From: a virus
DNA: 52,974 nt
IMG/VR virus record: IMGVR_UViG_3300048837_000214
Coordinates: 1 to 52,974 of that record
Reading direction: 5' to 3' (one strand)
Shown here: positions 1,629 through 41,234 of the stretch, one piece after another
Position numbering within the stretch: the first letter of the stretch is position 1
How the letters are laid out: every line of letters starts with the position of its first letter
Translations under genes and position numbers: made by a program
The notes under the pieces: model-generated
What the model saw: only the letters and a program-made list of their open reading frames with translations
Told to the model about the DNA's origin: nothing
Database searches by the model: none

Positions 1629-2134
1629 TGCTCGCCCCTCGCGGCGACCATCTGCCGCAGCCTGTCGCCGTAGTCGCACGAGCACCAGCCCGCCATCATC
1701 ACGACCCGCTTGTTGATGCCGTCCACCAGCTTCGCCACGGGCGGATCCTGCACCAGCCACATGTTCAAGTCGCCGCTCGGCTGGATTTCCTCGACCTTGC
1801 GCCGCCGGATGCGGCCCGTGTCCTCGTACCGCTCGACCATCACCAGCGCCCAGAACGACCGCCGACCGGTCCCTGAGCAGTCCCGGCAGTCCTGCGCCGG
1901 CCTGGCTGAGTGCGTCGGCGTGGCGTCGATCATGGCGCGCAACTCTGCCGGCGAGGGCGCGAACGTCTGGGAGTCAATCCAGGATGTCACCGCGGCGGCC
2001 ACCTGGTAGTCCGTCTTGGCCGCGGCCTTCGCCACCCGAAGGTATTCGGCGGCCTCGGCCTTGCCCATGTTCTTGCCACCTGTGCAGGACGACAGGCGGG
2101 CGATCTGGATCACGGCGTGGCGTTCGGAGATCAC
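1625..2134 (-). CDS. Replication-region protein with DnaJ-like Cys motif
   Basis: This encodes 169 residues. It is coupled by ATGA overlaps to the replication-initiator-like gene upstream and the PAPS-reductase-like gene downstream. The N-terminal half is helical (KAEAAEYLRVAKAAAKTDY). The middle has CRDCSGTG, a CxxCxGxG zinc motif, and the C-terminal part has a CSC pair (GWCSCDYG), so a four-Cys zinc site is likely. Position directly after an initiator-like gene is where many phages carry a helicase loader or replication accessory protein, but no AAA+ motifs are visible, so I do not assign that role. Family not recognised. Confidence 0.65.
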   Translation of the reverse strand: MISERHAVIQIARLSSCTGGKNMGKAEAAEYLRVAKAAAKTDYQVAAAVTSWIDSQTFAPSPAELRAMIDATPTHSARPAQDCRDCSGTGRRSFWALVMVERYEDTGRIRRRKVEEIQPSGDLNMWLVQDPPVAKLVDGINKRVVMMAGWCSCDYGDRLRQMVAARGEQ

Positions 2135-12412: not shown

Positions 12413-12594
<182 letters not shown>

Positions 12595-12607
<13 letters not shown>

Positions 12608-13083: not shown

Positions 13084-13248
13084 TCAAAGATGGGGCGGCG
13101 TAGGAGATAAGGAAGAGCAGACCCGATCAAAAAGGGATTGAGACACCGCAGCGTTCAGCGCCTTGACCGTATCGTCCAACTGATGCTGGAGTGTCGTGAT
13201 CTTCTCCTGCGCCCACTTGGGGAGTCGGCTGAATTGCTCTGGTGTCAT
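13084..13248 (-). CDS. Small helical protein (DUF7239-like)
   Basis: This encodes 54 residues. It begins MTPEQFSRLPKWAQEKITTL and continues with a charged helix (QHQLDDTVKALNAA). The P-K-W-A-Q motif followed by a helix recalls a family of very small phage proteins (I associate it with DUF7239, not verified). The start at 13248 overlaps the upstream stop in ATGA. Function unknown. Confidence 0.65.
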   Translation of the reverse strand: MTPEQFSRLPKWAQEKITTLQHQLDDTVKALNAAVSQSLFDRVCSSLSPTPPHL

Positions 13249-13610
13249 CTCGTCCTCCAGTTCCGCGCCGCGACCCCCGCCGTCGCGCCGGCCATGCCGA
13301 AGTTCACGATGGCAGCCGGGATCTTCGCCTTCGGGTTGCGCCGGATGGCCCATCGCTGGACGAGCAGGCAGCCCGTCACGATGCCGAGCTTGATCCCCGT
13401 CGCCTGCCAGCCGTACCGCTGGCCCCTGCCGAGGATGGGGTTGGCCTCGATCCCGCCCCAACTGCTGGCGATGTCCGCGCCCTGCGCCCCGATGGCGACC
13501 GCAACCGACGTGCGGTACAGCCTGTCGCCGGGGGACTGGCAGTGGGCCAGTTGAGCAAACCCAATGAGGCCGATGAGGATCAGTCCCCACCCAACGGTCT
13601 TGGGGCTCAT
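13245..13610 (-). CDS. Small membrane protein with signal peptide
   Basis: This encodes 121 residues starting MSPKTVGWGLILIGLIGFAQLAHCQS, a hydrophobic signal-like segment; LAHC is close to a lipobox but has His where a small residue is expected. Two more hydrophobic segments follow (SVAVAIGAQGADIASSWG and GIKLGIVTGCLLV), and a Gly/Ala-rich helix near the C-terminus. A small-molecule or holin-like membrane role is possible; no family assigned. ATGA overlap fixes the start at 13610. Confidence 0.65.
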   Translation of the reverse strand: MSPKTVGWGLILIGLIGFAQLAHCQSPGDRLYRTSVAVAIGAQGADIASSWGGIEANPILGRGQRYGWQATGIKLGIVTGCLLVQRWAIRRNPKAKIPAAIVNFGMAGATAGVAARNWRTR

Positions 13611-14341: not shown

Positions 14342-14488
14342 TCATTTCACCCGGTAATTCCGCCCGCTACCCACACCAGCGCCCCCGCCGTCGCAAAGTT
14401 CACCACGGTCATCCACCGCGATGTCCTGACTGGCGACCCGGGCCGCGAGGGGGAGGGAGAGCATCAAAAAACAAATCAGTCGAGCCAT
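14342..14488 (-). CDS. Short ORF with signal peptide
   Basis: This encodes 48 residues. It starts MARLICFLMLSLPLAARVAS, a classic Sec signal peptide with an A-x-A-like end, and AGGAG lies six bases before the ATG at 14488. The mature part is hydrophilic and Gly-rich. In another frame the last third reads MTVVNFATAGALVWVAGGIT, a hydrophobic helix like those of neighbouring membrane proteins, so this may be a frameshifted small membrane protein. Too short to assign. Confidence 0.5.
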   Translation of the reverse strand: MARLICFLMLSLPLAARVASQDIAVDDRGELCDGGGAGVGSGRNYRVK

Positions 14489-14537
14489 GTTGGCTCCTAG
14501 TAGATGGCAATCACAACGATCTCGTCAGCCCCGATAA

Positions 14538-15785
14538 TCATTGAATCCTTGCGTTCCCGGTCAGCGACACCTTGCCCGCCGTTCGCGCCGCTGGCCCTGC
14601 CGGCGGTTCGCTCTCTCCCTCCACCGCCTCCCGCGCTGGATGTGGGTAGGTGTACTTCGTGTAACTGGGCTTCGCCGCTGCCCCTACGAACACTTCGCGG
14701 TCATCCTGAACGATGGCATCCCACCCGTTCTGGTAGGCGTAAGACGTAGCCCGCGCCCCGGTGTTGTTCCAGGCGTAAATCGGATCAATGACGTTGTTCG
14801 TCCCGTTGTGGCCCCACCCCGGCTGCCGTGCCTGCGGGTAGGAACCCGGCGTCGTGTTGTCGCCAATGTCGAACAGGTTGGTGCTGCCGTAATCTGACGG
14901 CGCGGTCGTGTTGTTCACCACGTTGTCCGTAAAGATCCCGCTGCCGGCGCGAAACCAAAAGTACCTCGTCACGTTTCGCGGGGTGACCGTCATGCGGAAC
15001 GTGTTGTTGTAGGCCTCGAACCACCGGCCGCCATAGGTGGACGTGAACCCATGCGTGATCCAGGTGCAGCCGTCGATGAGGGAGTAGCGGCCCACCAGCC
15101 GGGCATTGTCGTCGATGTCCACCCCGCCCGTGTTCAGGAATGACGAGTCCTCGATGTAGACGTTCACGGCGCCGCCTGTATCCAGCGTGCCCATCGTGCT
15201 GGCAGTCGCCCATGCGCGGGGGGACTTCAGGTGGATGCTAACCGATGCGATCGACGGCCCCAAGTCTTCTCCCGGCGTGCCGAAGTCTGACCCATCGATT
15301 GAGATATTCCAAGCCACCCCGCCCTGCGAGAGCCATGCGATAAGCGCCACATCCTCCGCTGACCCGAAGCGTTCCTTATTCTCGAAGTGGCAGTCGAACA
15401 ACAGGGGAACCTTGCTGCCCGTGCCGGTGAACCGCACGGCGTTCACGTCGCCGGTCCCCTCGTCAAACCGGATGCCGCCCACCCCAACGTGGTAGGTATT
15501 GCCGCTCTGCATCTCGAACAGATTAGATGACGAGTTGTTGGTCAGCACCACGTTCCGCGTGGCCGTGCCCCCCGAAGTCGGCGTGTAGTTCTGCGCCCGG
15601 ATGATGATCTGCTTCGTCGTGGTGATCCCGGAAGTCCAAGTGCAGGAGCCGTTGGGGATCAAGACAGTATCCCCGTCCGAGGCCGCGCCGACTGCTGTGT
15701 TGACGTGATCCCGGCTGCACGATGAGGCCACGACCTCAGTGCCCCAGGCCGAGGCGGCAACCAGGAGTGCAAGCGCCAGTTTCAT
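14538..15785 (-). CDS. Secreted beta-helix (pectin-lyase fold) protein
   Basis: This encodes 415 residues. The N-terminus MKLALALLVAASAWGTEVVA is a Sec signal peptide. The body has repeated short strands with Asn/Gly turns (NVYIEDSSFLNTG, IDGCTWITHGF, FEAYNNTFRM) typical of a right-handed parallel beta-helix, and the end carries KYTYPHPAREAVEGE. Such proteins bind or cut surface polysaccharide. Catalytic residues cannot be assigned. It is coupled by ATGA to the preceding gene and closes the signal-peptide cassette. Confidence 0.7.
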   Translation of the reverse strand: MKLALALLVAASAWGTEVVASSCSRDHVNTAVGAASDGDTVLIPNGSCTWTSGITTTKQIIIRAQNYTPTSGGTATRNVVLTNNSSSNLFEMQSGNTYHVGVGGIRFDEGTGDVNAVRFTGTGSKVPLLFDCHFENKERFGSAEDVALIAWLSQGGVAWNISIDGSDFGTPGEDLGPSIASVSIHLKSPRAWATASTMGTLDTGGAVNVYIEDSSFLNTGGVDIDDNARLVGRYSLIDGCTWITHGFTSTYGGRWFEAYNNTFRMTVTPRNVTRYFWFRAGSGIFTDNVVNNTTAPSDYGSTNLFDIGDNTTPGSYPQARQPGWGHNGTNNVIDPIYAWNNTGARATSYAYQNGWDAIVQDDREVFVGAAAKPSYTKYTYPHPAREAVEGESEPPAGPAARTAGKVSLTGNARIQ

Positions 15786-16471
15786 TGCTTCGGCCCCGCC
15801 ATGCCGATTGCGATGGAGTTGGTCCCGTATCCGGACCAGGTGAATGTCGAACTCGCCGCCGTGCAGGATGCCGCCGAGATGCCGACGCCGCCGCCATCAA
15901 TTGCAAAATGCTCATCGGTCGTGCAGCCCGTCACCGTGCGGATATCGGTCGTGTCCATCTGGATCGATGTGCCGATGCCACCAGCCGGCACCGTGAGGAC
16001 TTGGTTCCCTGAAGTGGTGATGGTGCAGGTATAGTTGACCGCTGACTGGCTGGCATTCTTCAGGTGCACAACTGTTCCAACCACGCCGTAGCTTGGCCCG
16101 CTGCTATATGTGACCGTGAGGTTTGCCGCGCCTGTCGCTGTCGGAGCAATGCCGACGTAGCAACGCCCCCGCATGAAGCCGTTGCCTGCCGTCGCGCTGC
16201 CTACGGCGGTCCACGTTGCACCCGCACCGGAAATCCCGGTCGGGTCTACCGCGCCCTCTGTGGCGGTCCCGATCATGACGAACAGCGCCCGATTTGTCCC
16301 TGCCGTCATGCTGGGGGTGACAACCGTGACACTGGTGCTTGCTGCATAGCCGTCGCCAGAGATGGCTTCCAACGCAACATCCGCACCCGCCGCCGCTTTC
16401 TTCTTGGGCAGGATGATAATTTGGGGCCACGCGAGAGCGGCCCCCAGGATGAGGGTGAGTAGAAGTCTCAT
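15782..16471 (-). CDS. Secreted beta-rich appendage protein
   Basis: This encodes 229 residues. It starts MRLLLTLILGAALAWPQ, a signal peptide, followed by a basic PKKK patch and then a Thr/Ser/Gly-rich all-beta domain (SVTVVTPSMTAGTNRALFVMI, AANLTVTYSSG). This looks like a small immunoglobulin- or jelly-roll-type adhesive domain. A start one base after the upstream stop and an ATGA at its end show translational coupling. No family assigned. Confidence 0.65.
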   Translation of the reverse strand: MRLLLTLILGAALAWPQIIILPKKKAAAGADVALEAISGDGYAASTSVTVVTPSMTAGTNRALFVMIGTATEGAVDPTGISGAGATWTAVGSATAGNGFMRGRCYVGIAPTATGAANLTVTYSSGPSYGVVGTVVHLKNASQSAVNYTCTITTSGNQVLTVPAGGIGTSIQMDTTDIRTVTGCTTDEHFAIDGGGVGISAASCTAASSTFTWSGYGTNSIAIGMAGPKQ

Positions 16472-16472
16472 G

Positions 16473-19385
16473 TTAGTCGGTCACCACCCGGAAGGTCACG
16501 GTGATCGTGAGGAACGTGGGCGTTCCAGAAACGCTGGTGGTCTTCCAACCAATCCAGTTGCCCGATGCGATTGTCGAGTCGGTCAGCGATCCGTCGTCGG
16601 CATCCTCGTCGCCATTGAAGGTGATATCGGAGTCAAGGTCGGCGCACGATGCACCCGCCGACGTACACTCCTGTAACTGCCCCACCACGTTAGTCGTGCC
16701 TTGCAGCACGCCCCTGATGGTCAGGATGGACATGCCGTAGGGAGCCTTCATGAGCAGCATGTCGTCTGCTGCCGCTGGTGCGGGGATTACGAACGAGACG
16801 TGCTGGATCGAGGGCAGCGCCCGCTTTGCCCCACCGTAGAACTGCAATTGGTCGGTGGTGGTGTCCACAGCGATCTCACCCGCAGCATCCACCGTGGGGC
16901 CTGTGCCGTTGGGGATCTGAATGCTGGTGCTGAACACAGGGTTGGTGCCAAACACTAGAGCGCCGCTGCCTGTCTCATCAGTCACCGCCGAAGCAAGGTT
17001 CGCACTCGACGGAGTTGCCAGCGCCGTTGCCACGCCTGTACCAAGTCCGCTCACGCCTGATGCGATGGGGAGGCCCGTGGCGTTGGTGAGCACACCCGAT
17101 GCCGGGGTGCCGAGTGCCGGGGTCACCAGCGTCGGGGATTCAGCAAAGACAAGCGCCCCGGTCCCCGTCTCGCCTGTCACAGCCGAGGCAAGGTTGGCAC
17201 TTGACGGAGTGGCAAGGAACGTCCCGACGCCCGTGCCGAGCCCGCCTATGCCGCCGACCGGAACAGCCGTAGCCGTGATGGTGCCGGAGCCCGTGGCCCC
17301 AAGCGAACCGCCTGTGCCAACGACCATTGCTGCCGAGGTGTTCGTGCCGCTGCCAATGCCGTCGAACGTGGGCGATCCTGCCGTCGCGTCAGCCGCGCAC
17401 ACCCACGCGCTTGCACCGTTGCGCTTGATGATCTGGTTCTCAGTACAACTCAGGGCCGCGATAGCAGTCAGGTCGGCGTCTGACGGCTGGTAGTCTCCGG
17501 TCACAGGAACTTGCCCCGCGCCCGTGCCGAGGGTAGCCGCCGCTGCTGTTCCCAGAGTCGGCTTGTTGGCAATCGAGGTTCCGCCGCTCCCAGAGTTCCA
17601 GTCAATGTACTGCGCCGCCAACCCTGCCGCCGTACCGCTGGCGTTGCCCGTGATGTTGCCCGTCAGTGGGCCTGCAAAACCCGTAGCGGTCAACACCCCA
17701 GTTGAGGCGTTATAAGCCAGCCCCGCGTCTGTCTTGGGTTGAAGGTTGCCAGTTGCCGAGTCGAAGATCCCAACGAAACTCGTGGAATCTGTTCCGTCCA
17801 CTACCTGCACAGTCTGAGGAACAATGGCGGCTGATCCGTCAAAGTTCACCCCGCCAATAGCACGAGCTGTCGCCAATGCCGTAGCGGTAGATGCGTTACC
17901 CGTCACCGCTCCTGTCAGCGGTCCAGCAAACCCTGTCGCCGTCAGCACTCCCGTCGAAGCGTTGTAGGTCAGCCCTGCGTCCGTCTTAGGCTGCTGGTTG
18001 CCTGTTGCCGCGTCGAACATGGCGATGTAGGAGGAGGCGTCCGTGCTGTCAACGGTCTGAATGGTTTGGGGGACAATCGCCGCCGTGCCATTGAAATCTA
18101 CCCCGCCGATTGCACGGGCGGTTGCAAGTGCCGTAGCCGTGCCCGCGTTACCGCTGATGGTGGTCTGGGGATTCGCCGTCGAATGGTAGGTCACCACCGA
18201 GCCGCCATTCTCGTGCGACTTCAGCAGCGAGTCGGCGCTGTCGAAGTAGACGCTATGCTCTCCCGCCGATGCGCCTGCGCCAGGCGCTGTTCCCTCCAAC
18301 AGCGTGACCACACCCGTCCCACTACCGGATACGGCCAGCAGCGTCCCGCTGGTCGGCAGTGTGAGGCTTGTTGCCCCAGTTGCGGTCAGTGTGACCGAAT
18401 AGGCCCCGGAGGTCGTCAGGCTTCCACCGCTTGCCGCCGTCGCCACGTTGGGCTTGTTGGCGATGCTCGAACCACCACTCCCAGAATTCCAGTCGATGTA
18501 TTGGGCGGCGAGTCCTGCCGCTGTGCCTGTCGTGTTCTGATTCAGCGTAGGGAAGTTGGTCAACAGCGCCGCTGAAACCGCTGGAAGTTGTGCTGAACCG
18601 TTCAACTGAACAAGGTTGCTCGCCGAGGTCCCGACCGTGTACGAGGTTCCCCATGCCGACCCCGTGGAGTTTGCAACGCCAGCGCCGGGATACGTCATGG
18701 ATCCGCCTGCGCCGATGTCCGAGGCAGAGGCCACGACGTTACCCGAAGCGTCGAACGCGAGTTGCTTGTTGACGGTCTTGGTGCCGCTGACCGTGGCAAA
18801 TTCTGTGGTGTTGCCGGATCTCGATCCGATGTCGGCTGTCCCGTTGAAGCTCACCCCAAAGATGCTTCGCGCCGTAGCAAGCGCTGTAGCTGTTGCCGCA
18901 TTCCCCGTCGTGCTTTGGTTGAGCGTCGGGAAGTTTGTGAGTAGCGCCGCGCTGACCGCTGGAAGTTGCGAACTCGCGTTGAGTTGCACGAGGTTGCTTG
19001 CCCCGGTCCCGACCGTGTAAGACGTACCCCAGGCTGAACCCGTGGAGTTCGCCACTCCCGCACCCGGCCAACTCAGACTGGCCCATCCCACAACCCCCGA
19101 CCCGTTGGTCGCAAGGTACTGTCCCGCCGTGCCATCCGCAGACGGGACGGTCCACAGCGTCTGCTCAACTGCGCTACTTGCGCCGAAGCGCAGCAAGCGC
19201 CCTTCGGTCTTCGTCGCTGGCACAATGGACGCTACGAAATTTCTCATGTAGGCAGGAGTAATGCTGCCCGCCGCCTGTCCATCGGCGAAGTAGCCGAGCA
19301 GGGTGGATTGAGTCTGAGCCGTGCCAGTCTGTGCGTGTGCGGCAATCGAAAGAACCACCGCGAGAAGAATGAGTCTTGCCATCAT
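16473..19385 (-). CDS. Long repetitive tail-fibre-like protein with signal peptide
   Basis: This encodes 970 residues. Residues 1-18 (MMARLILLAVVLSIAAHA) are a Sec signal peptide. The rest is made of repeated fibre modules: WPGAGVANSTGSAWGTSY with SNLVQLN and LTNFPTLNQ twice, a unit with QTDAGLxYNASTGVLTATGFAGPLTG twice, and LATARAIGGVNFDG several times. These Gly/Thr/Ala modules are typical of trimeric phage tail fibres. The C-terminal 150 residues are unique and beta-rich, probably the receptor-binding tip. It is a paralogue of the gene at 23411-25075. Confidence 0.8.
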   Translation of the reverse strand: MMARLILLAVVLSIAAHAQTGTAQTQSTLLGYFADGQAAGSITPAYMRNFVASIVPATKTEGRLLRFGASSAVEQTLWTVPSADGTAGQYLATNGSGVVGWASLSWPGAGVANSTGSAWGTSYTVGTGASNLVQLNASSQLPAVSAALLTNFPTLNQSTTGNAATATALATARSIFGVSFNGTADIGSRSGNTTEFATVSGTKTVNKQLAFDASGNVVASASDIGAGGSMTYPGAGVANSTGSAWGTSYTVGTSASNLVQLNGSAQLPAVSAALLTNFPTLNQNTTGTAAGLAAQYIDWNSGSGGSSIANKPNVATAASGGSLTTSGAYSVTLTATGATSLTLPTSGTLLAVSGSGTGVVTLLEGTAPGAGASAGEHSVYFDSADSLLKSHENGGSVVTYHSTANPQTTISGNAGTATALATARAIGGVDFNGTAAIVPQTIQTVDSTDASSYIAMFDAATGNQQPKTDAGLTYNASTGVLTATGFAGPLTGAVTGNASTATALATARAIGGVNFDGSAAIVPQTVQVVDGTDSTSFVGIFDSATGNLQPKTDAGLAYNASTGVLTATGFAGPLTGNITGNASGTAAGLAAQYIDWNSGSGGTSIANKPTLGTAAAATLGTGAGQVPVTGDYQPSDADLTAIAALSCTENQIIKRNGASAWVCAADATAGSPTFDGIGSGTNTSAAMVVGTGGSLGATGSGTITATAVPVGGIGGLGTGVGTFLATPSSANLASAVTGETGTGALVFAESPTLVTPALGTPASGVLTNATGLPIASGVSGLGTGVATALATPSSANLASAVTDETGSGALVFGTNPVFSTSIQIPNGTGPTVDAAGEIAVDTTTDQLQFYGGAKRALPSIQHVSFVIPAPAAADDMLLMKAPYGMSILTIRGVLQGTTNVVGQLQECTSAGASCADLDSDITFNGDEDADDGSLTDSTIASGNWIGWKTTSVSGTPTFLTITVTFRVVTD

Positions 19386-19386
19386 G

Positions 19387-22300
19387 CTAATTACTCCCTA
19401 TTCCGAAATCAGAACTGAATGCCGCATCCCACGGATTAGCGGGGGTTCCGACGGTTACGGTTCCGGCGACACGCGCGGTCCCGCAGGTGATTCGATAATG
19501 GTTTGTCCCGGTGTTAAGTCCGGTCGCCGAAAACGTCTGATAGCGGGCCTTCGTCGCGTCGGCCGCGGAGTCCGGGGCATCACTGGAACTCGCCGGCGCC
19601 GTGGCCCCGATGTACACTTTGCAGACCGTCGCGGGAGGTGCAATCCACGACAGCGAAGCCGCACCAGCGCCACCCGTCGCCGTCACAGATCGGATCACCT
19701 CGTAAGGTGCCGTCGCCCACTGTGGATTGCCGACCTTCGCGTTCTGGTACGGCAACGCGCCCATGAATTGATCGCGGGCACGCTTGGGCGAATACGTTCC
19801 GACCTGAGTCCGTGCGGCCATCAGGTTCAACGCCGCGCCAGTGACCACCGGGTAGCCGCCCACGGGATCAGACGCCCAACCAACCATGAATCCCGGCAGC
19901 ATCGTGACGGTTGCACCAGCGGTGTGAGCCGCCGCTGTCGATCCCCAGACGCCACGGGCGGAGATAGTGAACCGAGCCTTGCCGCTGGACGGCGTAGAGA
20001 GTGCGGGGCTCCCCGTGAGCCGCACATACTCGTCGTCGATCTTGGCCCAGGCGATGTTGAAGTAGGAGTCCCCGCCGTCCTTCCAGTCCAGACCCGCCAC
20101 CACGTCGATGGTGGTCTGAGAGTCGTTCATGTCGGCATCGAGGGGCCATGAAACGATGGCCGAACTCGCGCATTCATCGAACGTCTCGCATCGCAGTTTG
20201 TCCCCCGGCCCCACCCCGATGTCGATAATCCTGAACTGCATCATGCTGTTGACGCTCGACAGCACGCGCCCCGCGTAGTGCGCCGCCATCGAGTTCGAGA
20301 CGTGGTGGAACAAAGGCAGATCGTCCGGTCCCTCGAACGTGCCGCTTTCAGCAATCCATGCCCAGACGTTGGCGACGTAGCTCATCATGTAGGACGGCGT
20401 GCGGCGGTGGCCGTCTACAAAGCCGTCGTTCGAGGTCTGCGGCGAGGCGTGGTAGGGGACAAATGCCGGGTTCGTCTCAGGGATCACGCCGCTGTTGATC
20501 AGCCCCATGGTGTCGCGCCCCGCGCACCACATGTCAGCGGTCAGGGCGGTCGAAGTGCTTGTGGGACGGGTCCAAGACGCACAGGTCGGATCAACGGGCG
20601 CGTGCGCTCCGTCAAACACCAGCATCGCGCCCTCGAAGAACTCCGCGTTGTTCTGGAGGCGGTTTTGGAAGTAGGCCCGCTCCACCGTGCTGTCAGGTGA
20701 CACCAGCGCGGCCAGCCAGATGTTGCGCTGCGTCCAGGCGATTGCTCGCGGCGCGTATGGCTGGTAGATGATGCCGCGCCCGTGCATCCTGGTCGTGATG
20801 GTCCCCGACTCGTTCACTCCCGTCGTAGTAGTCGCCATGCCGAACGCGCCTTCCATCTGTGCCCCGACGAGGTAGTAGTGGTAGCCCGTCAGCAGGTACG
20901 GGATGGCGTAGAAACTTGGCGCGTGGGTCGTGTAGTCGGTCAGGCCCTCGGCAGTCCAATTGTTCTTATAGGTTGAGGATGTGGCGTTGATTCGCCCGTC
21001 ACAGGGAGACGAGGCGCAAACGTGGGTGGCAGGGGTGACCAGCCCCTCTTCGCTGCTCCCGTACAGCGGCCACCAGCCACGGGTCTCATCCAAACTCACA
21101 ACGCGCCCAAGCGTCGAATCCTCGCCCGCTGCCGGGTAGAACGTCCCGGTCGTGGTCATCATGTAGTGGACCGGCGCGTTGCCGGCAGCGTCGGCGTTGC
21201 CGATGACCAACCTGTCCCATACGTCTTTTTTCTTTGCCACCGTCGCGGTCCCGTGGCCCATCAGGTAGAGGTACTCGAGATACCAGCGCGGGATCAGTGC
21301 AATGTCGCCCCGCGCTCCGGTCCCCCCGACGCCCTTCTGCCAGGACGCGCAATGGGAGGTCGATGTCTCGCACCATTGGGCCTCATCGCTGCCAAGCCGG
21401 GAGGCGTAGGATGACAGGTCGGAATCCGCCAGCGTCGATGCCACGGGCAGCCGATAGTCGTAGGACGGGATGACCCGCGTGTGGATGAGGTAGCGGAAGT
21501 TGTAATCTGTGACGATGGCTCCCGGCGCGGTCCCACTCCAGACGAGTTTGTGTCTGCGGGAACGGGCGTGGAAGGTCTTATCGCTCACTGTGTAGGCCGT
21601 TGTCGCCTCGCTTGCCCCCGTCTTAAGCGTCAGCGTCAGTCCCGTGATCTGCTGGAACCTGTGCATCGAGGCGTTCGAGATTTGGGCGTCAATCTCCACA
21701 CCCGCATACGACGGGTAGAACCGCGCCTCGAAAACGGGGTGCAAGGACTTGTACTTGTCCTCAGAGGGTGCCCCCCACGCGCCGCCGCTGTACTGCCAGC
21801 CGAAGTCGTAGGTGAGCGCCGTGGAACGGTCCTCGATGATGACGCCTGACACCACTGGCCCCCGCAGCCACCAGCGCCACGCCCCCGCGTCCAACATGGT
21901 GCGGGCAGAGGCCGAATACTCCACCGAGTTCACTGTCCCGTACCAAGTGGCGGACCATGACCCTGTGCCACCGCCCGTGTCGAAGTCGAGCATCTGCTGT
22001 TGAGTCAGCGCCGCTGCCTCGCACGTTGCGAGGTTCCCCAAGTGGCAAGGGTCGGAAGATGCTACGAAGTCCACGACTGCCGAGCCGTTTGCCGAGAGGT
22101 CCAACCGGAACGAGACGATGGCCTGTTGAATGGAGCCATCCGGCCAACTCGTCTTCACGTCCACTTGCCACGCATCCGGTACGGTCCCGCCGATGCGCGG
22201 TTTCGGGTACGTCCCCGTGGCGAACTCGCCCTGTGCGAAGAACCTCATCAAACTCATGGGCCGAGCGGTCTGTCCGGACCCGGACGCCTCGTGGATCGTG

Positions 22301-23409
22301 ACGCTATTGCTCAGGCCCGTGGATGGTTCCGGCTCTCCGCCGCCGCTATTCTCTACTTCGTCCCCAACCGCGTAGAAGGTTGATGGGTCGTTCTGGCTGT
22401 TATACGATGCCGTCACATACGACGAGGACCGCACGGCGTTCGACATTCTCATCTCGTCGATGTCCCCGGCCATTGCGCGAGCGTTGTCCGACAGCCTGTT
22501 CCCGATCAGAAGGGTTGCGGACCCAGTTGATATAGCACTCGCTGGAGCCGCCACTTCAGTTACACTTTGGCTCACGCCATCGAAGTAGATGACGGGATCG
22601 TTTGCCGTGCTGGACCCGTCGTGAGCGACGACGACATGGACCCACTGCCCGGTCGAGGGAAGTCCCGTTTTCCATGCGGCCAAACCGCCGCCGCTGTTCT
22701 CGACCTGGTAATAGAAGGTGTTGGTGGTGTCCATCAATACCTGGTCTTTTAGTTCTCCGTGCTGGAACCAGCGCCGGGAGGTGCTGTCCACGGAATCGAC
22801 GTAAAGCCACGCCTCCCATGTCTTCGCAGCGGAGGCCGTCAGTGCCGACACAGAGATGCGATTCGTTGACGTGGAACCCGCGAACGAAGCTGCGCCATCA
22901 ACCTTGCCGGATGCCGCCACTGCGCCAGTAATCGAACCGTCCTTGTTGTTGACGGTGGAGTCTTCAGCCGCCAGCGTTGTCCCATTGGGGAGGTGCCACA
23001 CCCCCTTGTAACTGGAGTCCCACACGTTCGTCGGATCGGCCTGAGTAGTCGAGACGCTAGCGTCCCCGTATGCGATGTAGATGATGGTATTGGCGGTGTG
23101 GGAGACGGACGGCACTTTGACCCACATCTCAACCGCGCCCGTCGCGGCGTCCCACGAGACAACCTCGTGTTTCAGTTGGGTCGATAGGGCCTCGTCGCTA
23201 TAGAACGCAATGTCATAGCCGCTGGCACTCTCGACCCTGCCGCCGTTGGCGACGGTGGCAAGCCACGAATACGTCCCACTGAACAACACGGGGAAGTCCG
23301 TCAGCGTTGCGGTCCCTGCCTTCGTGTAGTCGATGGTCAGGGTCCGCTTGTACCCGTAGGCTCCCCACGCGGGCAGGGCCAACAGAAGCAGAATCAGGAG
23401 CCGCGTCAT
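19387..23409 (-). CDS. Giant adhesin-like protein: signal peptide, DUF2341/LamG-like, C-terminal Fn3-like
   Basis: This encodes 1340 residues, the longest in the genome. MTRLLILLLLALPAWGA is a signal peptide. Residues 18-115 (YKRTLTIDYTKAGTATLTDFPV, here cut short) resemble DUF2341, and residues 120-350 (WHLPNGTTLAAEDSTVNN, WVHVVVAHDG) a concanavalin/LamG domain, both glycan-binding. A long middle with many aromatic and His residues is unassigned. The last 90 residues (ASLSWIAPPATVCKVYIG) look like a fibronectin type III domain. GGAGG precedes the start. A receptor-binding or surface-degrading role on the virion or cell surface is likely. Confidence 0.75.
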   Translation of the reverse strand: MTRLLILLLLALPAWGAYGYKRTLTIDYTKAGTATLTDFPVLFSGTYSWLATVANGGRVESASGYDIAFYSDEALSTQLKHEVVSWDAATGAVEMWVKVPSVSHTANTIIYIAYGDASVSTTQADPTNVWDSSYKGVWHLPNGTTLAAEDSTVNNKDGSITGAVAASGKVDGAASFAGSTSTNRISVSALTASAAKTWEAWLYVDSVDSTSRRWFQHGELKDQVLMDTTNTFYYQVENSGGGLAAWKTGLPSTGQWVHVVVAHDGSSTANDPVIYFDGVSQSVTEVAAPASAISTGSATLLIGNRLSDNARAMAGDIDEMRMSNAVRSSSYVTASYNSQNDPSTFYAVGDEVENSGGGEPEPSTGLSNSVTIHEASGSGQTARPMSLMRFFAQGEFATGTYPKPRIGGTVPDAWQVDVKTSWPDGSIQQAIVSFRLDLSANGSAVVDFVASSDPCHLGNLATCEAAALTQQQMLDFDTGGGTGSWSATWYGTVNSVEYSASARTMLDAGAWRWWLRGPVVSGVIIEDRSTALTYDFGWQYSGGAWGAPSEDKYKSLHPVFEARFYPSYAGVEIDAQISNASMHRFQQITGLTLTLKTGASEATTAYTVSDKTFHARSRRHKLVWSGTAPGAIVTDYNFRYLIHTRVIPSYDYRLPVASTLADSDLSSYASRLGSDEAQWCETSTSHCASWQKGVGGTGARGDIALIPRWYLEYLYLMGHGTATVAKKKDVWDRLVIGNADAAGNAPVHYMMTTTGTFYPAAGEDSTLGRVVSLDETRGWWPLYGSSEEGLVTPATHVCASSPCDGRINATSSTYKNNWTAEGLTDYTTHAPSFYAIPYLLTGYHYYLVGAQMEGAFGMATTTTGVNESGTITTRMHGRGIIYQPYAPRAIAWTQRNIWLAALVSPDSTVERAYFQNRLQNNAEFFEGAMLVFDGAHAPVDPTCASWTRPTSTSTALTADMWCAGRDTMGLINSGVIPETNPAFVPYHASPQTSNDGFVDGHRRTPSYMMSYVANVWAWIAESGTFEGPDDLPLFHHVSNSMAAHYAGRVLSSVNSMMQFRIIDIGVGPGDKLRCETFDECASSAIVSWPLDADMNDSQTTIDVVAGLDWKDGGDSYFNIAWAKIDDEYVRLTGSPALSTPSSGKARFTISARGVWGSTAAAHTAGATVTMLPGFMVGWASDPVGGYPVVTGAALNLMAARTQVGTYSPKRARDQFMGALPYQNAKVGNPQWATAPYEVIRSVTATGGAGAASLSWIAPPATVCKVYIGATAPASSSDAPDSAADATKARYQTFSATGLNTGTNHYRITCGTARVAGTVTVGTPANPWDAAFSSDFGIGSN

Positions 23410-23410
23410 G

Positions 23411-25075
23411 CTATTCCAAGACCTCCAAGCGGGTCACCGTGTAGGTGCCGTCCAAGTCCGCTGAGACAGCGGCGTTGCCCACATTGCAGAGCGTCACGAC
23501 CGCCAGATCCGTCCCCGGCGTCACCTTCGCTATGACCGTGGCCGGGAGAGCCGATGGCACCCCCAGGATCAGCCTTGCGCCGCTGACAACACCCGTGAAG
23601 GAGATGTTCTTCGCCACGCAGTTCCCCGCGCTGCCCACCGCCGCCAGCGTCCCCCAGGACGAAAGCGTGGCAGTGTTCTCCGACCCCAGGACGTTCGCTA
23701 GAGAGCTTCCCCCAGTGCCCGCCCCGATGTCTGTGGTGGACGCTACGATATTGCCGCTGGCGTCGAACTTCAACTGCTTATCAACAGTCTTTGTCCCGCT
23801 GACTGTCGCCATCTCTGACGTGTTGCCAGACCGGGAGCCGATGTTGGCTGAGCCGTCGAAACTCACGCCAAAGATCGTGCGGGCCGTGGCGAGGGTCGAG
23901 GCGGTGGCGGCGTTCCCGGTCGTCGATTGGTTGAGCGTGCCTACCGCAAGAACCCCGTCCGTCATCGTTAGGCCGCTCCCCACTTTCACGCCACCGAGGA
24001 CGGAATCTGTTGCCGTGGGCAGGCTATACGCGGCGGGCTTGTTCGCTATGGATGTGCCGCCACTGGAGGCGTTCCAGTCGATGTACTGTGCAGCCAAGCC
24101 AGCCGCTGTCCCCGTGGTGTTCTGATTGAGAGTCCCCACTGCCAGCACGCCGTCCGTGATGCCGAGGCCGGATCCGACCTTAACGCCGCCAAGGGTATCT
24201 GCCGAGGCCGTTGGTAGGCTGTAGGCTGCCGGCTTATTGGCGATTGAACTGCCCCCGCTCGATGCGTTCCAGTCGATGTACTGGGAGGTCAAGCCAGCGG
24301 CGGTCCCCGTCGTGCTCTGGTTAAGAGTCGGGAAATTCGTGAGGTTGGCGGCGCTCACGGCGGGCAGTTGCCCAGATTCGTTGAGTTGCACGAGGTTGTT
24401 TGCCGACGTGCCCACAACGTAGGACGTGCCCCACGCGGAGCCCGCGGAATTAGGGACGCCTGCGCCGGGGTAGCCTGCCTTCGCCCCAAGCGCGGTCGTG
24501 AGGTCCGTCACTTGAGACTGCGCAATAGTGATGGGGTCCGATCCTGCCGCCGCGTGAGTCGAGGCGTGCGGGCCGACTTCCGCGGTGATGGTCCCGGCCA
24601 CCCAGTTGTCGCCATTGAAAACCAGCCCCTGCCCGGTCGTGGCGCCGGCGGCCGAGATTTGGGACGGCGAGATCATCACGGTCGCAGCGGAAGGGATCGC
24701 GGCCCGCAATGCGCTGAGCGATACCGGCGTGGCCGAAACTGGGACCACGAGAGTCTCAATCATCGTGAATCTGCTGGCAACCCATCGGGCCGTGTAGTAG
24801 GTCGCGGGCTCGCCTTCAGAGTCCACCGGCAGGCACGAAGCATTCGGCACCAGCGCGGTCGAAAGCACGCCCTTGGTGACCGTCACAGATACCGGCTGCG
24901 GGAGATAGGCGTTGTCGCCGCACGTCATGTTGTGCGACGGGATGAACGTCACAGTGCCCGTGAAGAGCGTGTTGTTCACGGGCGTGCGAATGATATCGGA
25001 GATGGCCGTGGCGGTCGTCTGGCCGTTGGCGGCGAACAGGCCACCGACACAAAGCAGGATCAGTAGGTATTTCAT
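23411..25075 (-). CDS. Tail-fibre-like protein with signal peptide
   Basis: This encodes 554 residues. The start at 25075 is fixed by an ATGA overlap with the hydrolase gene. MKYLLILLCVGGLFAANG is a signal peptide. Residues 25-170 form an N-terminal domain (IIRTPVNNTLFTGTVTF), then fibre modules containing QYIDWNASSGG and VKVGSGL repeat two or three times, and share PGAGVPNSAGSAWGTSYVVG with the fibre at 16473-19385. The last 100 residues (GTLAAVGSAGNCVAKNISF) are a beta-rich tip. Confidence 0.8.
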   Translation of the reverse strand: MKYLLILLCVGGLFAANGQTTATAISDIIRTPVNNTLFTGTVTFIPSHNMTCGDNAYLPQPVSVTVTKGVLSTALVPNASCLPVDSEGEPATYYTARWVASRFTMIETLVVPVSATPVSLSALRAAIPSAATVMISPSQISAAGATTGQGLVFNGDNWVAGTITAEVGPHASTHAAAGSDPITIAQSQVTDLTTALGAKAGYPGAGVPNSAGSAWGTSYVVGTSANNLVQLNESGQLPAVSAANLTNFPTLNQSTTGTAAGLTSQYIDWNASSGGSSIANKPAAYSLPTASADTLGGVKVGSGLGITDGVLAVGTLNQNTTGTAAGLAAQYIDWNASSGGTSIANKPAAYSLPTATDSVLGGVKVGSGLTMTDGVLAVGTLNQSTTGNAATASTLATARTIFGVSFDGSANIGSRSGNTSEMATVSGTKTVDKQLKFDASGNIVASTTDIGAGTGGSSLANVLGSENTATLSSWGTLAAVGSAGNCVAKNISFTGVVSGARLILGVPSALPATVIAKVTPGTDLAVVTLCNVGNAAVSADLDGTYTVTRLEVLE

Positions 25076-25806
25076 ATAGCCACCCCTTCCGCCATCTGCC
25101 GCCACCGCGTCAGGTACTCGACGCTGGCCTTGTAGCCGCTGTGCTTGTTGATCTTGTCGGAGCAGTCCAGCAGGTCCACCCCCGCGACGATCGCGCCTGG
25201 CTCCTGCGGTCCGTGGCACCCAAGCATCCGATCCCACGAGGCGAACTTGTAGGGCCAGTCCACTGGGTCATGCCGCGAGTACGCCACGAGGATGCGGTTC
25301 GCCCGGTAGAGGTACGCGCCGTACCGGGAGGATGGCTCGAGGGCGTTATCCGAGACAGCAGGGGCCGACATGATGAGGTTGCGGCAATGGAGGCCCGCCC
25401 GCAGAGCCTCCAGTGCCACCATGCCGCCCAGGGAGTGCGTCTGCACGTCGATGGATGCGACGGGCAGGTGCCGGCAGACCTCTGCGATAAGACGCCCCGC
25501 TTTCCGCGCCCGATGACGGGCGAAGGTGAACCCGATCTTACGTTCGCTCAGCGGCATAAACGCGCCGATCACCACGTCATACGGCAGCGACCCTAGATCC
25601 TCCAGGTTCTGGAGCAGCACGCTGTACGCCCCCGCCGCGGCGTCCTCTGTGTTGTTGTAGCCGTGGAGCAGGAGTAGCACGCGCTTCCCGCTGAGGCGGG
25701 CGCTGACCTGCGTGGGCGTCAACACCTGCCCCATCGTTGTCCGCCAGTGCGGGGACGCGGCGAACCAGACCCGAGAACCATCGCGGCAGAGGTCGAGGTA
25801 CAGCAT
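25072..25806 (-). CDS. Alpha/beta hydrolase (DUF900-like)
   Basis: This encodes 244 residues. LLLLHGYNNTEDAA (oxyanion-hole region, HGY at 48-50) and THSLGGM (nucleophile Ser125 in an H-S-L-G-G elbow) define an alpha/beta hydrolase. An Asp in SRHDPVD near residue 178 and a His in NKHSGYKAS near the C-terminus could complete the triad. It lacks a signal peptide. Esterase or lipase activity is expected; lying between lysis-like genes and the fibre cassette, it may cut acyl groups on the host surface during entry or help release. AAGGAG sits seven bases upstream. Confidence 0.75.
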   Translation of the reverse strand: MLYLDLCRDGSRVWFAASPHWRTTMGQVLTPTQVSARLSGKRVLLLLHGYNNTEDAAAGAYSVLLQNLEDLGSLPYDVVIGAFMPLSERKIGFTFARHRARKAGRLIAEVCRHLPVASIDVQTHSLGGMVALEALRAGLHCRNLIMSAPAVSDNALEPSSRYGAYLYRANRILVAYSRHDPVDWPYKFASWDRMLGCHGPQEPGAIVAGVDLLDCSDKINKHSGYKASVEYLTRWRQMAEGVAI

Positions 25807-26861: not shown

Positions 26862-27287
26862 TCACCCACGCCCTGCCCCGGAGCGGACAAACGGATCGGC
26901 CACGACTACAGCCCTCCCGTCAACGTATTTCCAGGTGACCGGCACGACGGCCTCTCGCAGGTCGATGTGGATGTACCAGCCCTGGTGGTCCACGCCGATG
27001 CCCTTGATCCGCTCATCCTGCCGGCAGAACTCATACAGCCGCTTGAGGTCACACTGGGTCGCGCGAATGTCCGCCGCGAGCCCGTGGAAGTGGTAACCCG
27101 GCTTCAACTTCGCCGCCTCGATCGGGTGCGAGGCGCAACGGTAGCCGGAGTTGATGACGATGGGCCCGGCCTTGGCGCGGAGGTCTTCGAGCACCTCCAG
27201 TAGTTCGGCTTTCACGCCGCCGCGGCCGCAGTGCTTGCAGCGGAGTTCCTTCGCCTTGAAGTGCTTGGACTCGATCTGGATGGTCAT
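26862..27287 (-). CDS. M15-type peptidase, probable endolysin
   Basis: This encodes 141 residues. SGYRC (47-51), then HFHGLAAD (His66 and Asp73) and YIHID (His107) are the zinc ligands and active-site layout of peptidase family M15_3, which cleaves D-Ala or L-Ala-D-Glu bonds in peptidoglycan cross-bridges. An N-terminal CKHCG pair is extra and may bind a second zinc. There is no signal peptide, so export would need a holin. AAGGAC seven bases upstream supports the start. It is the best lysis candidate in the genome. Confidence 0.82.
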   Translation of the reverse strand: MTIQIESKHFKAKELRCKHCGRGGVKAELLEVLEDLRAKAGPIVINSGYRCASHPIEAAKLKPGYHFHGLAADIRATQCDLKRLYEFCRQDERIKGIGVDHQGWYIHIDLREAVVPVTWKYVDGRAVVVADPFVRSGAGRG

Positions 27288-27296
27288 GTCTTGTCC

Positions 27297-30200
27297 TTAC
27301 GCCAGACCGGTCACAATCCCGCGATCCGTCGCCAGGTTTTTCGCAGCGACTGACACCGATCGGACCACCGTTCCGCCAGCCCCAAGCGCACTGATGATGT
27401 CGTTGATCTTGTTCGCCAGCGTCAGGATGTCCCCGGACATTCCCGTCGTGTCAATCGCCGTTGGGACCGCGCCGCTTGCGGTAGCGGAAAGGCTGGTCAG
27501 CAATGCCTGCGAAGCGATATTCGCGCCAGTGACTCCAACCGTCAGCGAGTCCCCGTTTGTGACGACGGCCTTGTTCGCCCCAATTGACCCGATTGTCAGA
27601 CCATTGAGAATGTACGCATACCCGTAATTATCAATGGCAAATAACTCAGTTCCGCCACTGGCCTTCAGTAGCAGGACGTTCCCCGTCGAGTGGTTCTGTG
27701 CTGTGATCGCCCCGGTAGCATCGACCTTGCGGCATATCACATCTCCGTCTGCATTGACGCCAAAGGTTTTAGTTCCGCCTGCATTCTGCCCCTCAAGCAA
27801 GGCTGTCGTGGATTGCCCGGACCCGGCTTTCACCTTTACGAACGCAACGCCCGCTTCACCCGTGTCCTCCACTGTGATCGTCCCAAACACTACATCGTCG
27901 GCACCAAGCGCGAGCCATCCTGTGTTCCCTGCACCCGTCCGCTTCCTCCAGACCGTCCCGTTGGATTGCAAGTAGAGGCTACCGGGATATGCCGTTTTTG
28001 CGCCTTCGGGCGATATTGTCCCGGCATATAAACCACAATCACTATCTTGGTCGTCGCAGGGTAGAATCGCCCCGTCCTTGGTGATCTTCGCGCCGTTCAG
28101 AATAACGCTTTTGTCGTCGCCATAGAGCGCCTTGAAATAGAACCACCAAGCCGTGCCGTCGTAGGCATGAAGCCAAAGGTCTGTCCCGTTATCCAGGTGC
28201 GCCTCAGTGTATTGGACATTGCTCGCGCTCGTTGCGCCGGATTTCTTGACGGCGCGGACAGTCTGCTGTCCAGCCACGCCGTAAGTGTCTGCAGAGCCAA
28301 CCTCGTTCATCGTCCACCGCACGCTGTCCAGCAACTGTGCGTGCGTCAGTTTCTGTGGAGCGGCCCCAGTGGACCCCTTAATGATGAGCCGAACCTGCCC
28401 ATTGACATAGCTCGCCAGTAAAGCGGCGAAAGCGTTTGTCATTTTGTCCGTCTCACTAATCCAGTGCGTGCCATCGTATTTTGTATTCAGTCCGATAGCC
28501 ACATGCTTGTCGGTGCTGTTGGCCGCCCTTCCGACCAGCGAAGCCCCCGGCCCGGCTGATCCACTTGCCGTGACGTTTCTCCGCCACGCGAGATTGTCCA
28601 TCGTGGCAGGGAGCGCCCACCCTCCCTGCTCACTCGTCCCCATGTCAACTCCCCAGTGATACCCAAGGTGACTGGCTTGGGTGTGCGGTCCCCTGAGCAA
28701 AACGGGCTGGTCGACCTCGACCTGGTTCCCATCTTCGTTTTTGACCGAAAACAGAATAGCCCCAGATGCGGGCGCTACAAACTGGAACAGGATGAAGTAT
28801 TCAGTGCCGGTAACGACCTCAGCCAAGCCCATCTGGTTGGCAAGTATCACTGTCGCCGAGTCGTCCGTCAGTGTGTATGTGATCCAGTGCGCGTAGGCAA
28901 TAGACATCACCTTGAGCCGGAACCCAATTGAGTAGACCTCACCGGCAATTAGACCGCCAACTGCTGCTTTGATTTCTCCGCTGTCGTAGAGTTTGTACTG
29001 AGTCGCCGTCTCCCTGTATGCTTCCGGCGCTCCGGGCGTGAATGTCCAGGCGGCTGAATCGAAGTCAGGGATGAGGTTTTCGCTATCTAGTTTTTGGTCT
29101 GAGAACGCGCATGGGGTGTTATACAGCGGGTCTAGAATCCAATCGCTTTCGGTCTTGTCTCCAGTCGGGCATAACGCGATCCGCTTCCCCGTGATTCGTG
29201 GGCCGGAATACCAGTAGTAGAATGGTGTGGTCCCGTCTCCCTCTGCAATCCAGTTGTCGATCAGGATTCTACGGGCCTTCAGGTACACCCCACCAAGGAA
29301 GAAACTGCTGATGTTGGTCCAGATCGTCTGAATATTGTAGTCGCTGACAAACGGCGATTCGCCAATCTCTACCCGGTTCAACTGGCCGAAGGTGATGTTG
29401 CTCCACATATTACCGATCCCGTGGTACTCACGGACGGCAAACTCCCCGCTTCCCTCAATCAGTAGGTAATCGAATTTCAAATGGGCCGGCCCGAGATAGA
29501 AACGATCCAACGCATCGGATTCTGTTTTCTTGCTTCCGCACTTGATCGCGGTTCCGATGTTCTCGCAAATAATGTGAATGTTCCTGGCGGTGATATCGAC
29601 AGAATCACTCTGAAAACTCATCGCGCCGTAATGGTCGCAATCTCCATCGACCGCTTGCCCAACATGGTAGAAGTTGAGGTTTTCCAGCACGGACTGTCCG
29701 TTGAGTTTGTATGCGTAGAAGCCCCATCCCACGTTCTCGGCCCCACTAAACCCGCAATGCCGCAGGTAGAGGACGCCAGCACCGCCCGTGTTGTAATAAT
29801 CAACGGGGTCCGTTGCGGTCGTCAGAAGCGGCTTGTCGATTCTTCCCGCCCACACTAGCACTTGCTTGTCGTATGACGCGACCTCAAACAACTCAATATC
29901 CGTCTCTGTGCCAAGCCCGTGGAAGTGGATGTTTTCGATGATCGTGCCTGGGTATGGTTGCACCTCAATCGCCGGATTCGCGGTCGAAGCAATCACTGTG
30001 TAGTTTTTCTGCTGCAACCGGCTATAGAAAATGTTGTCCTGCCGAAAACCACGACCGATCCAGTGCGTGTTTTCTTTACTGGAAAGCGTTTCCGTGACGA
30101 TGTAGATTCCACCGGGCCAATCAAGCGCGTCTTTCGTCGTGGCCATCGACGCAATAGCTGCCAAGATGGCCGCCGTGTCGTCTGCCCCGTATGTAGCGAT

Positions 30201-30506
30201 TGCGACGGTAACCGTAGTCCCCGCAGCGTCGGCCAATTCGACCTCTGTTTCGCTCGTCACGGACGCGATTGTCGTGAACAGGTTTGTGCCCGCGCTGCCA
30301 GCACCTTGCACCACGCATATATTCCCAACGTCAGATGCTGTGAATGCCGCGGTGGCCGAGGTTAGAGTTTTGTCTGCGGCGGTTATAGCGGCGTCGGTGA
30401 GTTGGATGCCGTCACCCTTGGCACCAAAGTCCTTGACGGATGGTTTTTCGCCAAGTTTGTCGGAGAGCGATCTGGCGACCGCCGATGCGTATGGAGTGTT
30501 GGGCAT
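27297..30506 (-). CDS. Pectate-lyase-type tailspike
   Basis: This encodes 1069 residues. Residues 18-150 contain SVKDFGAKGDGIQLTD and DDTAAILAAIASM, the start of the pectate_lyase_3 (tailspike) domain. A long right-handed beta-helix follows (IIENIHFHGLGTETDIEL, LRHCGFSGAENVGW) up to about residue 470, then carbohydrate-binding-like and fibre modules, ending in a coiled, repetitive tip (TVEDTGEAGVAFVKVKAG). It lacks a signal peptide, unlike the other fibre genes. Likely a depolymerase on the virion that cuts host surface polysaccharide. Confidence 0.8.
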   Translation of the reverse strand: MPNTPYASAVARSLSDKLGEKPSVKDFGAKGDGIQLTDAAITAADKTLTSATAAFTASDVGNICVVQGAGSAGTNLFTTIASVTSETEVELADAAGTTVTVAIATYGADDTAAILAAIASMATTKDALDWPGGIYIVTETLSSKENTHWIGRGFRQDNIFYSRLQQKNYTVIASTANPAIEVQPYPGTIIENIHFHGLGTETDIELFEVASYDKQVLVWAGRIDKPLLTTATDPVDYYNTGGAGVLYLRHCGFSGAENVGWGFYAYKLNGQSVLENLNFYHVGQAVDGDCDHYGAMSFQSDSVDITARNIHIICENIGTAIKCGSKKTESDALDRFYLGPAHLKFDYLLIEGSGEFAVREYHGIGNMWSNITFGQLNRVEIGESPFVSDYNIQTIWTNISSFFLGGVYLKARRILIDNWIAEGDGTTPFYYWYSGPRITGKRIALCPTGDKTESDWILDPLYNTPCAFSDQKLDSENLIPDFDSAAWTFTPGAPEAYRETATQYKLYDSGEIKAAVGGLIAGEVYSIGFRLKVMSIAYAHWITYTLTDDSATVILANQMGLAEVVTGTEYFILFQFVAPASGAILFSVKNEDGNQVEVDQPVLLRGPHTQASHLGYHWGVDMGTSEQGGWALPATMDNLAWRRNVTASGSAGPGASLVGRAANSTDKHVAIGLNTKYDGTHWISETDKMTNAFAALLASYVNGQVRLIIKGSTGAAPQKLTHAQLLDSVRWTMNEVGSADTYGVAGQQTVRAVKKSGATSASNVQYTEAHLDNGTDLWLHAYDGTAWWFYFKALYGDDKSVILNGAKITKDGAILPCDDQDSDCGLYAGTISPEGAKTAYPGSLYLQSNGTVWRKRTGAGNTGWLALGADDVVFGTITVEDTGEAGVAFVKVKAGSGQSTTALLEGQNAGGTKTFGVNADGDVICRKVDATGAITAQNHSTGNVLLLKASGGTELFAIDNYGYAYILNGLTIGSIGANKAVVTNGDSLTVGVTGANIASQALLTSLSATASGAVPTAIDTTGMSGDILTLANKINDIISALGAGGTVVRSVSVAAKNLATDRGIVTGLA

Positions 30507-33343: not shown

Positions 33344-33733
33344 TTATTCGACTTGGATCAGGCGAAGGTCAACGGACGAACGAGCGAGTTGCATAGAACG
33401 CGACAGGCCGGTTTCAAAGCGGACGCGGTAGCGGCCCGTGGTGGATGCGCCGGTCGGGTCATAGTCGTCTGCGTTGGGGTAGAAGAAAAACGGTTCTAGT
33501 GACCCCTTGCGGTCGGCGAAAAACTCCAGCAAGTCATCCCACTCCGAGGCTGTCATTCGCTTTGCCACGGACCACGCGCGGCGGCTGGTCGTGCCGTCGT
33601 AGCGCCGCTGGCTGGAGCTGTCGGCGTAGGGACCGCTTTCGACAATGGCCCAGGCATACTCCTCGCCGAAGGCTGCCGACAGTTCGATCGGCAGGACTTC
33701 CACGGCGTCGGCGAGTTGGACGTTACCAGGCAT
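33344..33733 (-). CDS. Minor/distal tail protein
   Basis: This encodes 129 residues. ASEWDDLLEFFADRKGSLEPFFFYP is the core, similar to the start of the adjacent hub protein and to distal-tail proteins that cap the tube. It lies between the tape measure and hub genes, the classical place. ATG 33733 overlaps the tape measure stop by one base (TGATG). Confidence 0.7.
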   Translation of the reverse strand: MPGNVQLADAVEVLPIELSAAFGEEYAWAIVESGPYADSSSQRRYDGTTSRRAWSVAKRMTASEWDDLLEFFADRKGSLEPFFFYPNADDYDPTGASTTGRYRVRFETGLSRSMQLARSSVDLRLIQVE

Positions 33734-41230: not shown

Positions 41231-41234
41231 GGTG

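Follow-up and report, generated by a model that had tools for sequence, protein, structure and literature searches.

Gene content of the cassette and its setting

The window, by which we mean the whole stretch of DNA analysed, is a 52,974-base phage record whose ends carry a 127-bp direct terminal repeat, suggesting that the record is probably complete. Nearly all of its 59 called genes lie on the minus strand. Five large genes occupy the usual tail-fibre slot, downstream of the tail and endolysin genes. The five open reading frames are separated by 1-nt gaps or by 4-nt stop/start overlaps and are therefore probably co-transcribed, and the stop of the preceding hydrolase gene overlaps the start of the first cassette gene. 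The tape measure and tail hub are assigned by size and position because PHROGs give neither a name. The features are listed below with their signal-peptide (SP) scores, which are defined in the next section.

45745-47799, large terminase (PHROG match)
42907-44439, portal (PHROG match)
41607-43139, head maturation protease (PHROG match)
40232-41308, major head protein (PHROG match)
33733-36813, tape measure (assigned)
30508-33342, tail hub (assigned); SP score 4.0
27297-30506, minus strand, pectin-lyase-like tailspike without SP (PHROG pectin lyase, 9.6e-26); SP score 3.2
26862-27287, minus strand, M15 peptidase endolysin lying upstream of the cassette (PHROG endolysin, 3.4e-26)
25072-25806, minus strand, alpha/beta hydrolase (DUF900-like) without SP (PF05990, 6e-5); SP score 3.9
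23411-25075, minus strand, first cassette gene, 554 aa, PHROG tail-fibre matches; predicted SP MKYLLILLCVGGLFAANG^QTT, score 12.9
19387-23409, minus strand, exported-type protein, 1340 aa (PF13385, 9.5e-17; PF10102, 3.4e-8); predicted SP MTRLLILLLLALPAWG, score 13.2
16473-19385, minus strand, fibre, 970 aa (PHROG tail fibre, 5.5e-13); predicted SP MMARLILLAVVLSIAAHA^QTG, score 13.9
15782-16471, minus strand, 229-aa protein, predicted exported, four Cys; predicted SP MRLLLTLILGAALA^WPQ, score 12.0
14538-15785, minus strand, beta-helix-like protein, 415 aa, predicted exported, four Cys; predicted SP MKLALALLVAASAWG, score 11.8
14342-14488, minus strand, doubtful gene, 48-aa open reading frame with an SP-like start; SP score 11.3, coding score 3
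13245-13610, minus strand, small membrane protein, 121 aa, no PHROG match; SP score 11.6

The first cassette gene (23411-25075) encodes an SP, an N-terminal domain (about residues 20-127) and phage fibre repeats (GSAWGTS / YIDWN..SIANKP), with four mature cysteines at positions 52, 81, 486 and 530. The N-terminal domain is homologous to the SP-bearing fibre of a phage-derived locus in Acidobacteriota described below; this direct match (lowest E 4e-6, against a local database of small size) is better than a profile comparison of the same front with three SP fibres, which was weak. The product of 19387-23409 continues behind its SP with DUF2341, LamG/ConA-like lectin domains and then about 1000 aa without a match; it holds 12 mature cysteines, and its DUF2341 part shares 52% identity over 114 aa with giant Bryobacterales open reading frames. 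The 16473-19385 protein again carries phage fibre repeats and four mature cysteines, and its C-terminal tip shares homology and a Cys-X6-Cys pair with the SP fibre of an unrelated phage (L098). The body of 14538-15785 reads as a beta-helix; it aligns with a phage relative in L003 and with Acidobacteriota proteins, and C23 and C48 are common to it and the L003 relative. The 15782-16471 protein has no Pfam or PHROG match and no recognisable relative, and its single-sequence AlphaFold model (pLDDT 40) is too poor for use. Its membership in a beta-sandwich family of L080 was tested and is unsupported.

The first-pass annotation had described all five bodies as fibre, beta-helix or lectin-like modules. 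That description fits the two genes with PHROG tail-fibre matches (16473 and 23411), the lectin-bearing 19387 and the beta-helix-like 14538, but not the matchless 15782. Shaft repeats and position together give 16473 and 23411 the look of tail fibres; 14538 and 15782 lack this combination. Inspection found no virion-attachment N-terminal domain common to the five proteins. PDB sequence searches returned nothing, and IMG/VR searches with 14538 and the hub as queries gave no confirmed relatives. Reading of the C-termini by eye revealed no outer-membrane secretion signal, and the products may therefore remain periplasmic until the cell lyses.

Predicted signal peptides of the cassette

Leaders were scored with our own rule-based scorer, not SignalP, which looks for a basic n-region, a hydrophobic h-region of 7-15 residues and small residues at -3/-1; neighbouring and relative genes were counted as SP-positive above 11. 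Eight known Sec substrates of E. coli score 10.8-14.4, soluble and virion proteins (LacZ, GroEL, RecA, LacI, lambda J, T4 gp37 and P22 gp9) score 3.0 or less, and the true membrane anchors LacY and TatA score 10.6-10.9, so that an SP and an anchor are not separable at scores near 11.

All five cassette leaders show the n-region, h-region and -3/-1 residues of an SP. The five genes take the top five scores among the 59 of the window (chance about 2e-7), and shuffles of residues 2-40 at each protein's own composition reached the observed scores 0-31 times in 2000. On this calibrated scale the leaders look like real export signals, in agreement with the first-pass annotation, which had placed Sec signal peptides on these five genes and none on the tailspike or hub. 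Its statement that every large protein bears an SP was made of the cassette and holds there only; the tailspike, the hub and the hydrolase at 25072-25806 have none.

Two shorter genes had also been assigned signal peptides. For 14342-14488, the score and an AGGAG upstream of the ATG speak for the assignment, while the weak coding score and a mature part of fewer than 30 aa speak against it; the gene possibly encodes a small exported peptide. The leader of 13245-13610 scores above the threshold (58 of 2000 shuffles reach its score), but a second hydrophobic stretch makes the product better called a small membrane protein, probably outside the cassette.

Recurrence in other phages

Relatives were pulled from IMG/VR and GTDB with two repeat modules of the window fibres. 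An SP (score above 11) opens 32 of 68 nonredundant fibre-module genes (IMG/VR, GTDB, phage records and the window's own two), and allowing alternative starts adds 6 for a total of 38/68, against a background in which 24 of 824 genes gain a score above 12 from the same correction. The SP-less relatives include several sets with a common N-terminus. SP-bearing genes keep company: at offsets of -2 to +4, SP-positive neighbours number 53 of 148 beside SP fibres versus 10 of 137 beside SP-less fibres (Fisher p 4e-9).

The layout is not unique to this genome. Seven SP genes stand in a row in L080, five in a row plus one in L015, five in a row with further SP-like genes besides in L037, and four in a row plus one in L093, where they follow a lambda-like tape measure, minor tail protein and J. 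Five SP genes occur in vir555, a circular TPA phage genome, and the cassette of L098 includes an SP-bearing nuclease, located by sequence reading. Over whole records, adjacency of SP genes exceeds that in shuffled gene order in the window, vir555, G006, G008 and G012; it is not significant in G005, where a piece boundary splits the fibre gene, or in G009. With 14538, 19387 and proteins or segments of other SP cassettes as queries, the phage collection yielded vir555 as the only phage record with such a cassette and no cultured phage with one.

A comparison of position comes from L128, whose tail proteins, tape measure and hub (41% over 529 aa) are related to those of the window. After its hub come one small gene and then four SP genes, and their likeness to the window cassette is confined to the N-terminal domain type of the first gene. 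The position of the cassette is conserved; its content mostly is not.

Some features recur among the leaders and the domains behind them. The N-terminal domain behind the SP of 23411 is common to L128, L117, L116 and the Acidobacteriota locus, and A-x-A ends followed by Q are common among SP fibres. In L080:5341-6771, the leader is followed by a domain that opens SP-less phage proteins near Met1, at about the same spacing.

A phage-derived locus in Acidobacteriota

In GTDB, the fibre module finds its closest matches in Acidobacteriota; together with the DUF2341 match of 19387 and the alignment of 14538, they point to Acidobacteriota as the probable host of this soil-type bacterial virus. A domain profile built from SP fibres (A6) finds a single match in each of 27 Acidobacteriota genomes out of 297. 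An SP opens the matching gene in all 11 contexts examined (in two only from an upstream start), and 8 of the 11 share a conserved neighbour set. In G235, this set includes a head-tail adaptor (phrog_442), a terminase (PF17289), a portal (PF04860, 3.8e-51), a protein with sigma-70 region 4 and a gene that weakly matches a holin. In G235 and G251 the locus is flanked by glyA on one side and purE/purK on the other, and two more genomes show the glyA edge.

Pairwise dN/dS is 0.03-0.18 for the adaptor and a 323-aa gene (one pair saturated), 0.12-0.32 for the terminase and 0.11-0.39 for the SP fibre. The locus thus combines a conserved chromosomal site with purifying selection (dN/dS 0.03-0.39 where not saturated). 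Judged from its genes, it is a locus of phage origin that combines portal and terminase genes with a single SP-bearing fibre gene, and no report of such an Acidobacteriota locus was found in the literature. By resemblance only, it might be called GTA-like: it has the shared chromosomal site, purifying selection and compact head and packaging set of gene transfer agents, but differs from them in carrying an SP-bearing fibre gene.

Cysteine parity

Proteins of oxidising compartments tend to hold their cysteines in pairs. Among SP cassette proteins, even counts of mature cysteines outnumber odd ones 52:21 (binomial p 0.0002), versus 63:94 for SP-less genes of the same loci (Fisher p below 0.0001 for the difference). 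The window cassette proteins are all even (4, 4, 4, 12 and 4 mature cysteines), and cysteine density is 1.23 per 100 aa in SP fibres versus 0.48 in SP-less fibres. Parity is one of two cysteine measures tried; the other, tried first, was spacing, and close-spaced pairs showed no enrichment over shuffles (50 versus 49.8). The 11 fibres of the Acidobacteriota locus hold 14-24 mature cysteines, all even in number and with co-conserved pairs, while the other genes of that locus follow no even-cysteine rule; these fibres agree on parity but are related to one another. Parity and co-conserved pairs lend indirect support to the predicted export of the cassette proteins.

A proposed exported cassette of adhesins and hydrolases

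Export of the cassette products, suspected at first pass, is well supported by sequence statistics: the clustering of SP genes in unrelated phages, cysteine parity, the position of the L128 cassette and the retention of the SP in the Acidobacteriota locus all point to it. For function, we infer, with about even confidence, an exported cassette of adhesins and hydrolases that acts in the envelope or is released at lysis. The five genes would form an export cassette in the tail-fibre slot, probably made late, given their strand and their position after the tail and endolysin genes. Sec would carry their products out of the cytoplasm, signal peptidase I would remove the leader, and folding with disulphides would follow in the periplasm; the host would be a diderm, probably a member of the Acidobacteriota. 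Maturation would yield fibres of phage type together with one protein that bears a lectin domain and another that resembles a beta-helix. Freed by lysis, and acting in the envelope or outside the cell, they might bind or cut surface glycans of sister cells or debris, with receptor masking, superinfection blocking or the clearing of matrix for progeny as conceivable roles. The roles suggested at first pass, namely surface adhesins, decoys, superinfection blockers or biofilm factors, are candidates too. The cassette proteins would not be built onto virions in the cytoplasm, and ordinary adsorption would fall to the SP-less tailspike (27297-30506), a candidate for the phage's ordinary receptor-binding protein. 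This reading is favoured because surface-type domains directly follow the leader in 14538 and 19387, whose bacterial relatives are not phage parts, because one related cassette (L098) includes a nuclease, and because an SP-less tailspike remains.

As the main alternative, the products might be virion fibres that are exported, disulphide-folded in the periplasm and docked onto virions when lysis mixes the compartments, a possibility we hold tentatively. Several observations fit this alternative: the cassette sits in the virion-fibre slot after hub or J and carries the same shaft repeats as SP-less fibres; L080:5341-6771 keeps, behind its leader, a domain that opens SP-less phage proteins, spaced from the mature N-terminus much as it is from the start of those proteins; 23411, L128, L117, L116 and the Acidobacteriota locus have an N-terminal domain in common behind the SP; and that locus keeps its SP fibre among adaptor, terminase and portal genes. 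The L080 domain and the SP fibre kept in the head and packaging locus are its best support. All of these but the common N-terminal domain also count against off-virion adhesins and hydrolases, as does the failure to notice an outer-membrane secretion signal. Set against the alternative, the five window proteins have no docking domain in common, the SP is directly followed by a beta-helix-like domain in 14538 and by DUF2341 in 19387, no chaperone for fibre assembly was seen, and virions and fibres would occupy different compartments until lysis. Generalised, the alternative would amount to a second fibre-maturation route in tailed phages, in which receptor-binding fibres are Sec-exported, disulphide-folded in the periplasm and joined to the virion only at lysis, in several unrelated phages and an Acidobacteriota element; we regard this as rather doubtful. 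A virion role for the leader itself, as an attachment or docking peptide, had also been raised. It is disfavoured because the leaders have no common sequence and vary freely yet keep their n-, h- and c-regions, and because of the arrangement in L080:5341-6771.

Lysogenic conversion, in which surface proteins are expressed from a prophage, has an accepted precedent in lambda Lom (PMC12309495) but is improbable here. PHROG searches of window genes recognised no integrase or repressor in the genes covered, the cassette shares the strand of the late genes and directly follows the endolysin and hydrolase, and none of the five proteins has a Pfam or PHROG match to a Lom-like outer-membrane beta-barrel. 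Anchoring of the fibres in the inner membrane by uncleaved N-terminal helices, perhaps while they assemble, is quite improbable as well. The scores of known anchors come close to the lower cassette scores, but the A-x-A ends followed by Q that are common among SP fibres argue against a tether; cysteine parity and paired conservation fit an oxidising compartment and would fit a tethered protein too, leaving this explanation partly excluded. Chance or an assembly artefact, that is, hydrophobic starts by composition in a 63% GC genome, in which starts rich in alanine are frequent, or a join of host and phage DNA, is rejected as highly improbable, since shuffles almost never reach the scores, cassette GC (62.8%) equals that of the genome (62.9%), the record ends in direct terminal repeats and the same layout recurs in unrelated contigs.

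Relation to known systems

Known phage-encoded envelope proteins include Bor, Cor and T5 Llp. In lambda, the gene for the SP-bearing outer-membrane protein Lom lies between the tail spike and tail fibre genes (PMC12309495). The cassette resembles lom as SP-bearing phage coding capacity, lom adjoining the tail-tip gene J and sending its product to the envelope (PMC12309495), but differs in scale and content: Lom is one small beta-barrel, whereas the five cassette genes encode 229-1340 aa with fibre-, lectin- and beta-helix-like modules. The cassette has its shaft repeats and its place in the genome in common with SP-less phage tail fibres and tailspikes (PHROG 1833, 22609 and 6722; podophages L008, L009 and L010), from whose SP-less N-termini the cassette departs in its SP and even cysteine set. 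Free depolymerases, released at lysis, give plaque halos, and like the proposed cassette products they are phage-coded, glycan-active proteins outside the cell after lysis; unlike the cassette, to our knowledge, they are not Sec-exported. Acidobacteriota DUF2341/LamG and beta-helix-like proteins, to which the DUF2341 part of 19387 and the alignable body of 14538 are similar, are chromosomal, longer and outside any phage operon. A survey of phage DGR proteins states that these have no signal peptide, in contrast to bacterial DGR proteins displayed on the surface (PMC6199706).

Full-text searches of open-licence literature found no account of fibre cassettes exported by Sec. Provisionally, then, the cassette may be new, with lambda Lom as the nearest precedent for exported proteins that a phage encodes at this position.

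Textbook accounts treat tail fibres as products of the cytoplasm. An SP cassette that recurs among phages would mean either an exported adhesin and hydrolase programme run from the tail-fibre slot or virion fibres that mature outside the cytoplasm, and either reading, if true, would change gene annotation at the tail-fibre position and host-range prediction from such genes. Pairs of the same modules with and without an SP, and the Acidobacteriota locus, offer direct experimental entry points. In one further record (L111), two SP-bearing fibre-type genes lie among genes that look chromosomal, from which a role off the virion might also be argued.

Fibre-type genes outside the window

Fibre-type genes bearing signal peptides by our own rule-based score lie in a compact phage-derived locus of Acidobacteriota genomes and in a Bryobacterales contig:

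L194-L208, e.g. G235:C1:58426-76648 and G251:C1: terminase, portal, head-tail adaptor and signal peptide-bearing fibre (~1,540 aa)
L111:9104-12989: two signal peptide-bearing fibre-type genes

In G235, the Acidobacteriota fibre ends C-terminally in a GDSL-like domain. The site of the locus is conserved across Acidobacteriota genomes and the locus is under purifying selection; it is a candidate gene-transfer-agent-like element. Judged by eye, the genes flanking the Bryobacterales pair look chromosomal, and none of those seen there is a phage head gene.

A cassette of signal peptide-bearing genes is also present in vir555 (L006 / BK063671.1), a circular TPA phage genome whose record assigns it to a Methanomicrobiales host. 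Signal peptide-bearing staphylococcal-nuclease-like proteins occur inside or near such cassettes in two further loci:

L098:12641-13096
L005:13773-14234

Other genes of the window

765-1760: phosphoadenosine phosphosulfate reductase match, a possible auxiliary metabolic gene
12413-12607 (-): low-complexity ORF with Gly-Ser-rich repeats (GSGSGYGDGSGSG)
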